Below, in pieces: positions 7,655 to 17,636 of a DNA stretch of 22,342 nucleotides; position 1 is the stretch's first letter, and every line of letters starts with the position of its first letter. Where the stretch lies: positions 1-22,342 of IMG/VR virus record IMGVR_UViG_3300001450_000362; one strand, given 5' to 3'. The position numbers and the translations under genes are program-made. The notes below the pieces were generated by a model. That model saw nothing but the letters and a program-made list of their open reading frames with translations, was not told where the DNA came from and ran no database searches. This DNA is from a virus.

Positions 7655-7683
7655 CGTTATTCCCTTTCCTCCTTTAATATTGT

Positions 7684-7701
7684 CAGGTTAATTTTAACTT
7701 G
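7684..7701. repeat. Palindromic boundary repeat, copy 1
   Basis: CAGGTTAATTTTAACTTG, between the VWA gene end and the ribosome-binding site of the gene starting at 7654. A G8 tract follows at 7711-7718, immediately 3' of the VWA stop. Confidence 0.8.
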
Positions 7702-9869: not shown

Positions 9870-9895
9870 AACAACTCCTCATGATGTAAAGATTG

Positions 9896-9915
9896 TCAGG
9901 TTAATTTTAACCTGA
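9896..9915. repeat. Palindromic boundary repeat, copy 2 (perfect)
   Basis: TCAGGTTAATTTTAACCTGA: 9-bp arms pair perfectly around a 2-bp centre. It sits between the terminator at 9918-9948 and the start of the gene at 9869, 15 nt from its ribosome-binding site. This is the best-formed copy in the window. Confidence 0.85.
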
Positions 9916-11039: not shown

Positions 11040-11067
11040 AATCATCTCCTCATGCTGTAAAAGTTTA

Positions 11068-11085
11068 CAGGTTAATATTAACTTA
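11068..11085. repeat. Palindromic boundary repeat, copy 3
   Basis: CAGGTTAATATTAACTTA, 16 nt before the ribosome-binding site of the MoxR gene. It supplies the TAA stop of the small gene ending at 11083. Confidence 0.8.
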
Positions 11086-11991: not shown

Positions 11992-12003
11992 TGGTCACCT
12001 CGT

Positions 12004-12021
12004 TGAGTTAAAATTAACCTG
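12004..12021. repeat. Palindromic boundary repeat, copy 5 (extended cassette)
   Basis: TGAGTTAAAATTAACCTG. With the adjoining ribosome-binding site (GTCACCTCGT on the plus strand) it forms a 28-bp block at 11994-12021, nearly identical to the blocks at 12564-12591 and 13122-13149. Confidence 0.85.
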
Positions 12022-12181
12022 TAAATATTTGCGATTTCAGCGCCTCAAAAACATCATCAAATCTAGGATGCTTAGAGTTTCGCACTGCGAGATTACGAAG
12101 CAGCCAGCGGACATTCTCCGGCTTGCTCGTATCCCTTCGGCGCGTAGGCACCGTCATATCCGGCGGGATTATTATAATCAA
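12014..12181 (-). CDS. Small basic protein with non-ATG start
   Basis: A 55-aa protein if read from TTG 12181, which follows AAGGAG by 4 nt. The reading is LIIIIPPDMTVPTRRRD, so ATT (12178) or ATG (12157) are alternatives; the ATG is 28 nt from the ribosome-binding site, too far to use it. The C-terminal part ('ENVRWLLRNLAVRNSKHPRF' then DDVFEALKSQIF) looks like two helices. Its end overlaps palindrome copy 5. No family recognised. Confidence 0.5.
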   Translation of the reverse strand: MIIIIPPDMTVPTRRRDTSKPENVRWLLRNLAVRNSKHPRFDDVFEALKSQIFTG

Positions 12182-12561: not shown

Positions 12562-12573
12562 GGGTCACCTCGT

Positions 12574-12591
12574 AAAGTTAAAATTAACTTG
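12574..12591. repeat. Palindromic boundary repeat, copy 6 (extended cassette)
   Basis: AAAGTTAAAATTAACTTG; with the adjoining ribosome-binding site it is part of the 28-bp block 12564-12591 before the gene starting at 12561. It partly overlaps the stop of the peptidase gene at 12584. Confidence 0.85.
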
Positions 12592-13120
12592 ATAATATTT
12601 GATTGTACGCCTTCCATCGCGAGACGATATCGTCGGCTTCGGATTGCGGCGCGCTGGCACCCTTGCGGTCAACCGTGACAACAAGGAACACCTTCTTCCG
12701 ACGGCCCCAGTACTCCTCCGGGGTATCGCCCTCAGGTTTGGTCGATTGGTCAAACACCAAGCCATCCACATATGCCTGTGCATGGCCGCCGGTAATGAGT
12801 AGGTAAGCGCCTGATTTTGGCAGGGCCTTCACTGCATTCTGGAACGTGCAGCGCTGAAGCCGCTCGTTGATGTCGGGATCGATACACGGGTTTAGGCCAG
12901 CATGGTTAAGCGCCCTAAAGAGGTCCCCGCCATGCGGGTCTCGAACACTGCCGAAGCGCGGGTTCTTGGTGCCACCCTTCCACTTAGGTCCATAGCCGCA
13001 GAGATTGCGGATATTCGCCATAGACTGGCGCAAGCTTACGCCAGCCAGCACGGCCACGCTCGTTGGGCCGCATATTGGTAGGCGATTGCTGACGCCGTCA
13101 GGTTGTCGATACTCAGTCAT
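12584..13120 (-). CDS. Papain-like (C39-type) cysteine peptidase-like protein
   Basis: A 178-aa protein. The motif 'RLPICGPTSVAVLAG' places a likely nucleophile Cys17 at the start of a helix. 'YLLITGGHAQAYVDGLVFDQ' supplies His113 and Asp124, the usual Cys-His-Asp order and spacing of C39/papain-fold peptidases. No signal peptide and no transporter domain are visible, so it would act in the cytoplasm. Start ATG 13120 follows GAGGTGACT (the GTG at 13126 lies inside that site). Possible roles are cleaving a host or phage protein early in infection, or an inactive relative; the substrate is unknown. It shares its leader block with two neighbouring genes. Confidence 0.65.
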   Translation of the reverse strand: MTEYRQPDGVSNRLPICGPTSVAVLAGVSLRQSMANIRNLCGYGPKWKGGTKNPRFGSVRDPHGGDLFRALNHAGLNPCIDPDINERLQRCTFQNAVKALPKSGAYLLITGGHAQAYVDGLVFDQSTKPEGDTPEEYWGRRKKVFLVVTVDRKGASAPQSEADDIVSRWKAYNQILSS

Positions 13121-13131
13121 AGTCACCTCGT

Positions 13132-13149
13132 TGAGTTAAAATTAACTTG
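13132..13149. repeat. Palindromic boundary repeat, copy 7 (extended cassette)
   Basis: TGAGTTAAAATTAACTTG; with the adjoining ribosome-binding site it forms the block 13122-13149 before the peptidase gene. Confidence 0.85.
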
Positions 13150-13168
13150 AAATGATGGGCTTATTCGG

Positions 13169-13206: not shown

Positions 13207-13779
13207 CTATTTTAGTACGTCAGGATAAACCAACTTGACCGCATCAAGCAGTAGCTTGGCAGCTTCTTTGTCTGCGTCGGTGCCAGAGACCACAGACCTC
13301 GCCTTGATCTTGATCTTGTTTTTACGAACGCCGGATGCCTTCAGTGCAGCGACCGCAAGCTCTTGAGCGGCAGTCAGTTCTTCCTTGGGGTTGAGCAAGG
13401 CAATCAGCTTGCTCTGAGTGGTGATTTCAAGAGTGTCGAGGACCGCCTTGATCTCCTGAGAGTAGGCCCCGGTGTCGCTCCAGTCTTCGCCAACCTCTGT
13501 GCCGGCACGTTCGACGGTGGCCTGAAACTCTGGATGCTGATGGAACTTGACAGCATTCTCAGCCAAGATTTTGGCCTTGGCTTCCTTCTGACCAGCGGCC
13601 TCTAATTTCTTGCGGAGGTCGATGGCCTTTAGGCCACCGTCTAGTGCGTAAACTGACAGGTAGGCAATCGAGTAGACCTTACAGGTTTCGACCTTGCTGC
13701 GAGTGTCGTTGATTGTTTTTTCGCCCTCGGCGGCGGTAGCGAGTTCAGTTTTAGCAGCGGAGAAAAATGGGTTAGTCAT
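13207..13779 (-). CDS. Unknown protein; first gene of the leftward operon, hammerhead in its leader
   Basis: A 190-aa soluble, mainly helical protein of unknown family. Start ATG 13779 is chosen because GAGGTGAT lies 6 nt upstream; an open frame reaching 13869 would run through the ribozyme and is not believed. The N-terminal part ('AAKTELATAAEGEKTINDTR') and 'LRKKLEAAGQKEAKAKILAE' look like helices; the C-terminal part is basic ('GVRKNKIKIKARSVV') and could touch nucleic acid. Transcription probably begins near 14069, leaving a leader of about 290 nt with a self-cleaving RNA. The first position suggests strong early expression. I cannot assign a function. Confidence 0.65.
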   Translation of the reverse strand: MTNPFFSAAKTELATAAEGEKTINDTRSKVETCKVYSIAYLSVYALDGGLKAIDLRKKLEAAGQKEAKAKILAENAVKFHQHPEFQATVERAGTEVGEDWSDTGAYSQEIKAVLDTLEITTQSKLIALLNPKEELTAAQELAVAALKASGVRKNKIKIKARSVVSGTDADKEAAKLLLDAVKLVYPDVLK

Positions 13780-13805: not shown

Positions 13806-13857
13806 GTGTTTCGGCCATGCTTGGCCTCATCAGCGGTACAGCAACAGTACCGGACAC
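13806..13857 (-). ncRNA. Hammerhead ribozyme, type III
   Basis: Read on the minus strand, every hammerhead element is present in order. Stem III 5' strand is GUGU (13857-13854), then C17 at 13853 completes the GUC cleavage triplet. Stem I is CGGUAC (13852-13847), loop UGUUGCU, GUACCG (13839-13834). The core CUGAUGA is at 13833-13827. Stem II is GGCC (13826-13823), loop AAGCAU, GGCC (13816-13813). GAAA (13812-13809) follows, with its last A plus CAC (13808-13806) closing stem III. Stems I and II are capped and stem III is open, hence type III. Cleavage is expected between 13853 and 13852, 73 nt before the ATG at 13779. Stem III is only 4 bp, so activity needs testing. Confidence 0.9.
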
Positions 13858-14075
13858 TTTTTGCCCCACGCCTGCTGTAACGGTGTCTTTATTTCGGCCC
13901 CTTGGGGTTGAGAGCAGTGGCTTTAGCCATCTAGGTTCTTGCCTGCCTGTCTTTCCCGGCGACCCCCACCTCTCTGTGGGTATCCAGTGGCCTTTGCCTC
14001 CGGGGGACTGGGCTAGGGAGTTTTTCCCGCCTCAGTGGTGCGCGTTGTTTGGGCCTCGCGAGGGCGCATGAACAT

Positions 14076-17495: not shown

Positions 17496-17636
17496 ATGAA
17501 ACCATGTGAGATAAAAATGTATGAACTAAAAGTAAAAGACGGAACATATAAATCAGACACTTTATTTTCATTAATGTGGGCTGTGTTTTATCACAGGCTG
17601 CATCATTGGAAAAAAGGTGAAGGATTTAAGGATTAA
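17496..17636 (+). CDS. Small basic protein of unknown function
   Basis: A 46-aa ORF from ATG 17496, or 39 aa from ATG 17517, which has a GAG 6 nt upstream. It reads MYELKVKDGTYKSDTLFSLM then WAVFYHRLHHWKKGEGFKD, a basic protein with an aromatic middle. It ends about 40 bp before the terL promoter. No family recognised; it fills what would otherwise be a 330-bp gap. Confidence 0.45.
   Translation: MKPCEIKMYELKVKDGTYKSDTLFSLMWAVFYHRLHHWKKGEGFKD

Follow-up and report, generated by a model that had tools for sequence, protein, structure and literature searches.

What hammerhead ribozymes do in phages and bacteria is a stated open question of the field (PMC6155905). Such ribozymes were already known from phages, one of them lying 13 nt ahead of an early operon (Perreault et al. 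2011, PMC3088659). The DNA analyzed here (22,342 nt, hereafter the window) comes from an uncultivated tailed phage and covers part of its genome. A preliminary description had placed an intact hammerhead on its minus strand, in the 5′ leader of an early operon. A 34-kb contig with an identical ribozyme and an identical protein downstream of it also exists. The genes to the left of the ribozyme mostly run leftward; they comprise a gene for a 190-aa protein (13207–13779, minus strand), which is the first of the operon, small genes, and genes for a phrog_1297 ATPase, an HNH endonuclease, an exonuclease and a Sak-like annealing protein. The last four make ‘early operon’ a reasonable label, as far as gene content can tell. 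A primase-helicase gene and a RusA-like gene run rightward, interspersed among the leftward genes, and the terminase small and large subunit genes run rightward from 14331. The ribozyme is thus placed between the divergent terminase small subunit gene and the 190-aa gene.

Read on the minus strand, positions 13857–13806 are GUGUC^CGGUAC-UGUUGCU-GUACCG-CUGAUGA-GGCCA-AGCA-UGGCC-GAA-ACAC, a complete type III hammerhead with no core base missing and with every letter as first described. Stem III (GUGU/ACAC, 13857–13854 with 13809–13806) has four base pairs. The cleavage triplet, GUC (13855–13853), conforms to the NUH rule, and the predicted cut falls between 13853 and 13852. Stem I (CGGUAC/GUACCG, 6 bp, 13834–13852) is closed by the 7-nt loop UGUUGCU. 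The core contains CUGANGA, as CUGAUGA (13827–13833), GAA (13812–13810) followed by A15.1, and the A15.1–U16.1 pair. The 3′ edge of CUGAUGA is the A9/10.1 junction (13827/13826), which is the site of inserts in relatives; the window ribozyme has no insert between A9 and stem II, so it is not of the inserted-hairpin type. Stem II (GGCCA/UGGCC, 13813–13826, minus strand) carries an AGCA tetraloop; it had been given as four base pairs but is counted here as five because the fifth pair covaries in relatives, while the lengths assigned to stems I and III stand. The three helices meet at the core, with stems I and II capped and stem III open-ended, a topology seen in the fold and borne out by compensatory changes in relatives. 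The minimum-energy fold recovers all three stems, although its energy z-score (−1.7) is unconvincing if taken alone. The GCU of loop I is complementary to the AGC of the stem II loop, which predicts a kissing contact. The ribozyme lies 27–78 nt ahead of the ATG at 13779, in agreement with the distance first reported. Pattern scans for types I, II and III, and a search with RF00163, found no second hammerhead in the window.

The search with Rfam's type III model that had been proposed gave a significant match (RF00008, 33.6 bits; E 5.2e-6 on 151 nt and 1.8e-7 for the whole 22-kb record), but one that lies below the curated cut-off of 48.5 bits, a database threshold; under Rfam's rule the window ribozyme is not an RF00008 entry, and this counts against its being functional. 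None of 11 related phage records reached that cut-off either. The match was not listed in the Rfam scan of the whole window, presumably owing to scan filters. A covariance model named R2, made from 26 other phage hammerheads with the window left out, scored the ribozyme at 68.8 bits (E 5.6e-19 over 103 kb). The preliminary description had held that a non-significant covariance score would speak against a ribozyme; the score obtained was highly significant. The same model found no hammerhead in the three named phages with the nearest terminase.

A search with the ATPase identified six related contigs besides the 34-kb one. In all the syntenic contigs that cover the site (L146, L147, L149, L150 and L227, the last standing for the contig of L151), a hammerhead lies just ahead of a homologue of the 190-aa gene. 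These five ribozymes are 85–94% identical to that of the window; identity is 34–73% over the 100 nt upstream and 59–74% over the 60 nt that follow. The core is retained throughout, so the loss of CUGAUGA or GAAA in close relatives that would have argued against the ribozyme did not arise. The compensatory changes that had been looked to for further support are present in both capped stems: an A–U pair of stem I becomes G–C, stem II changes from GGCC/GGCC to GACC/GGUC, and its fifth pair appears as A–U, U–A or C–G. These relatives and the model scores uphold the assignment to a type III hammerhead in a 5′ leader. A second hammerhead, of type I, was observed downstream of the 190-aa homologue in L147 (3356), L149 (4245), L150 (4705), the contig of L227 (L151, 246), L165 and L181; none was found in the window or in L146.

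The gene downstream of the ribozyme is the other recurrent element. The program-made open reading frame begins farther upstream, at a GTG (220 aa); the 190-aa start was preferred because it has a Shine-Dalgarno sequence (GAGGTGAT, 13791–13784, minus strand) and is supported by relatives. Among 86 phage type III hammerheads directly followed by a Shine-Dalgarno-led open reading frame, 21 precede a member of the 190-aa protein family, a few of these proteins being truncated or forming domains within longer ones. Most of the loci had been found with RNA patterns, without regard to the gene, and a few through the ATPase search. The ribozyme family is thus tied to one gene family, a link that could not be seen from the window. 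In the alignment of the protein family, identity to the window protein falls to about 15%, and a K-x-x-x-E-N-x-x-K segment is conserved. An AlphaFold2 model of the 190-aa protein is mostly helical (mean pLDDT 84). For this protein, whose family is otherwise unannotated, comparisons with PHROG, Pfam, PDB sequences and known folds gave nothing convincing, and neither the leader nor the gene has a match in named phages. Some ribozymes of the 21 members follow a promoter-like leader, while in seven another gene ends 15–43 nt upstream. The downstream gene is therefore the constant partner, and on this ground we would assign the function of the ribozyme to the mRNA side.

Placement ahead of genes extends beyond this family. 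Intact phage hammerheads of both type I and type III turned up in large numbers when viral contigs were scanned with patterns; one pattern specified no more than the core, the extra U and some letters of stem II, and 57 of its 78 unique matches had all three stems. A Shine-Dalgarno-led start codon was found 5–45 nt downstream of 68% of 120 type III hammerheads, a set enriched in the family of the window, and of 63% of 91 type I hammerheads, compared with 8–10% of random positions, the 10% applying to the type III set; in the first, less specific scan alone, the figure was 39% of 23 against 9% at random. The idea that type III ribozymes mark mRNA 5′-ends and type I ribozymes 3′-ends, with both bodies staying on the mRNA, was ruled out by the 63% of type I copies in that position. 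In L172, L179, L180 and L188, a GC-rich hairpin (e.g. GGGGGCTTCGGCCCC) adjoins the 5′ side of the hammerhead, directly past the stop codon of the previous gene.

We consider it probable that the type III hammerhead of the window is functional: transcribed within the 5′ leader of the leftward operon, it would self-cut at 13853/13852, remove the leader sequence upstream and define the 5′-end of the 190-aa mRNA. This reading draws on the motif, its conservation, the covariation of stems and tertiary contact, and the linkage to a gene family, all of them read from sequence; that cutting takes place in infected cells, and that 5′-end definition or stability is the selected trait, we infer. Stems I, II and III and the kissing contact would form co-transcriptionally, and the transcript would then cleave itself. 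Hammerheads do so at C17 and yield 2′,3′-cyclic phosphate and 5′-hydroxyl ends. The cut would take off a structured leader of some 215 nt and leave the mRNA of the 190-aa gene with a 5′-hydroxyl and with the hairpins of stems I and II just ahead of the Shine-Dalgarno sequence. A 5′-hydroxyl and 5′ hairpins are expected to hinder 5′-end-dependent decay. The likely benefit would be a defined, protected mRNA 5′-end, uncoupled from the upstream sequence. Two points count against cleavage: stem III, with four pairs, is short, and 4 of 18 hammerheads that conformed to the consensus were inactive in vitro (PMC3088659). There are also precedents for it. In the haloviruses HF1 and HF2 a hammerhead precedes an early operon by 13 nt and the 5′-end of the mRNA has been mapped to at most 3 nt from the cut, and the tandem hammerheads of Agrobacterium tumefaciens cleave when expressed in E. 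coli (PMC3088659). With the same ribozyme standing before one gene family in about 20 phage contigs whose leaders otherwise differ, the family offers a handle on what hammerheads do.

The cut would also release a 5′ fragment, and this fragment might be the selected product. The GC-rich leader that the predicted cleavage would remove (13858–14070, minus strand) had been described as lying downstream of a promoter-like sequence. Such a site is present (TTGACT, 14105–14100, and TATACAAT, 14081–14074, minus strand) and relatives carry TTGACA or TTGACG with TATAAT-like hexamers at the same place; a consensus scan found no sigma-70 promoter, so the assignment depends on those relatives. Near the predicted 5′-end of the leader lies an H-type pseudoknot with an A-rich loop (14065–14041, minus strand). 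Its stem 1 pairs GCC (14065–14063) with GGC (14055–14053), and its stem 2 pairs CGCG (14060–14057) with CGCG (14044–14041). The window sequence fits the pattern S1-NN-CGCK-A-S1′-N..AACAA-MGCG, with both stems pairing. In stem 1, which the search pattern left free, both sides change at all three counted pairs; in stem 2, which it constrained, CGCG:CGCG becomes CGCU:AGCG in 4 of 12, with 100% of cells pairing. Twelve of the 13 matches to the motif lie 93–264 nt upstream of a type III hammerhead, a biased count, as the loci scanned had mostly been collected for their hammerheads. By its place, the pseudoknot could serve RNA stability or the control of early-operon transcription. Across the middle part of the leader, a GC-rich segment that contains self-complementary stretches (13938–14060, minus strand) is 75–77% conserved in L149 and L227. 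The ribozyme would then make the 3′-end of a promoter-driven, structured non-coding RNA of about 215 nt that begins with the pseudoknot, and the mRNA would be a by-product. This is unlikely, however, as the leader varies widely in length and sequence and matches no Rfam family. No pseudoknot was detected in 10 of the 21 members of the gene family, in seven of which the hammerhead closely follows another gene; the downstream gene is constant and the 5′ fragment is not.

Across phages, the kissing contact is well conserved as a pairing: in 41 of 45 hammerheads (0 of 5000 shuffles), and in 19 of 22 when the AGCA class is excluded (shuffled mean 5.6; 0 of 5000 shuffles), loop II contains the reverse complement of the three letters that end loop I. 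The combinations include GCU/AGC, GCC/GGC, GUC/GAC, CCU/AGG and CCC/GGG. The rows of alignment A3 had been pre-filtered for stem pairing, so that the strong stem covariation in it is overstated; this selection did not extend to the kissing contact or to pseudoknot stem 1. The tertiary contact between loops I and II that had been thought possible is thus upheld by covariation. At the A9/10.1 junction, in turn, many members of the family carry whole hairpins between core residue A9 and stem II, among them four of the five syntenic relatives (L146, L147, L150 and L227), and L149, L154 and many other phage members carry a single extra nucleotide, mostly U, after A9. The hairpin inserts are 14–27 nt long, form one or two hairpins, and all lie at this junction. 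Their classes are GCGCAAUCCUGCGC-CUUG with its variants GGGCAAUCCUGCCC-CUUG and GCCGCAYGGUGCGGC-CUUG, other single hairpins, and two hairpins in tandem. In 12 of 13 distinct inserts, a perfect hairpin of 3 bp or more starts right at the first base (shuffled mean 5.4, maximum 11 in 2000). In L206 (about 1080–1155), the hammerhead has a 37-nt insert that holds a further CTGACGAT-like core, which gives the impression of a core duplication.

A literature search of incomplete coverage found no published description of hairpins at A9/10.1, and to our knowledge only single nucleotides have been known as additions at this spot. The viroid CChMVd is said to have a hammerhead with one extra core nucleotide after A9 (reportedly described by De la Pena and Flores in 2001), which is where L149, L154 and many other phage members have theirs; in the phages, however, this junction also houses whole hairpins of 14–27 nt. 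The core variants given in the text of Perreault et al. are 2a/2b, A6, A6a, C3–G8, U13a, 10.1–11.1 and 15.1–16.1 (PMC3088659), whereas the relatives of the window carry their inserts at A9/10.1. If active, the ribozymes with hairpin inserts would demonstrate that the hammerhead core can accommodate additional helices at that position. We tentatively propose, at somewhat below even confidence, that the window ribozyme represents, without an insert, a phage hammerhead family in which one or two additional helices stand between A9 and stem II and make a natural four- or five-way core. On this view the family would be kept as a 5′ processing element dedicated to one gene family, in many cases linked to a promoter and an H-type pseudoknot leader farther upstream.

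Inserts at exactly this junction suggest a different function, in which the hairpins of relatives, or a ligand or protein, would govern cutting and so the expression of the 190-aa gene. The class of 18/19-nt inserts has a conserved CUUG linker; the predicted minimum-energy fold pairs this linker with the AA of GAAA, and such pairing would mask the core. Yet this alternative pairing amounts to just two A–U pairs, no ligand or binding protein is known, and the window ribozyme, with no insert, and that of L149, with one nucleotide, occupy the same genomic place as the forms with hairpins. A regulated switch is accordingly rather improbable here.

On the opposite strand, a scan found a stem with a T tail (13834–13852, plus strand), so that stem I and its T run might act as an intrinsic terminator for rightward transcription. 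This reading was rejected: the A run upstream of the hammerhead, which provides the T run on the plus strand, is missing in L146, L147 and L149, all of which have the ribozyme, and a terminator would leave the conserved CUGANGA, GAAA, stem II and kissing contact unexplained; we regard it as very improbable. An inactive relic or chance match, conceivable in that simple motifs arise by chance in large databases (PMC3088659), is hardly credible given the conservation and covariation in relatives, the absence of any equally strict, intact hammerhead of type III or type I from 6.7 Mb of simulated sequence with the dinucleotide content of the window, and the yield of a wide (hairpin-insert) pattern in about 85,000 bacterial and archaeal genomes, where 54 hits included no complete hammerhead while phage contigs gave dozens.

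Cleavage that sets the 5′-end of the mRNA remains the preferred reading, and the ribozyme can be compared with those already described. With the type III hammerheads of bacteria and prophages (PMC3088659, RF00008) it shares topology, core, cleavage triplet, the kissing contact between loops I and II, a phage location and a position before genes; it differs from them in its score below the Rfam cut-off and in its family, where the UGNNGCU/AGCA loops are conserved and the same gene recurs downstream. Like HHphage of HF1/HF2, it precedes the leading gene of an early operon by a few to tens of nucleotides. The core of HHphage, however, carries an unusual insertion near C3, and the host is an archaeal halophile, whereas the window core is canonical and the gene downstream encodes no helicase. 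What is new in the present analysis is the syntenic conservation, the linkage to a gene family, the covariation of the kissing contact, the hairpins at A9/10.1, and the promoter-like site with its covarying pseudoknot.

The Rhizobium phages RHEph01 and RHEph21 (Paadamvirus) have a closely related ribozyme upstream of their first early genes, at the left end of the genome, which is unannotated in their records. The BLAST match to the window is limited to the ribozyme, in which stem II and the kissing letters are identical; the triplet is GUA, stem III has 3 bp, the downstream gene is a different one, and a boxA-like sequence lies directly upstream. Model R2 gave 52–60 bits for these two phages and their IMG/VR relatives. 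Since RHEph01 is a cultured phage (listed host: a Rhizobium etli strain), cleavage of this kind of ribozyme is within experimental reach. RHEph01 (L002) has a second hammerhead-like match at 2544–2605 besides its leader copy, and a similar one was seen in a related record behind L144. In the Paadamvirus-like leaders (L002, L003, L125, L128 and L132), a conserved GTTCTTTGACAAYYGAATA abuts the 5′ side of the ribozyme and resembles the boxA antitermination signal of rRNA leaders; it was not found in five Hyphomicrobiales genomes and is called boxA-like for that reason.

Two other observations concern the window outside the ribozyme locus. A weak mir-3618 match (17549–17628, minus strand; 32.2 bits against a cut-off of 99) corresponds to an inverted repeat, imperfect in its pairing, that directly precedes the gene for the large terminase subunit and is surely not a microRNA. 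An AT-rich palindrome, AGGTTAAWWTTAACYT, recurs in the leftward operon, at 7676–7701, 9889–9914, 11060–11085, 11995–12029, 12565–12599 and 13123–13150. Several copies adjoin the Shine-Dalgarno sequences of early genes, and it is also found ahead of gene starts in relatives; it looks like a repeated operator or RNA element.
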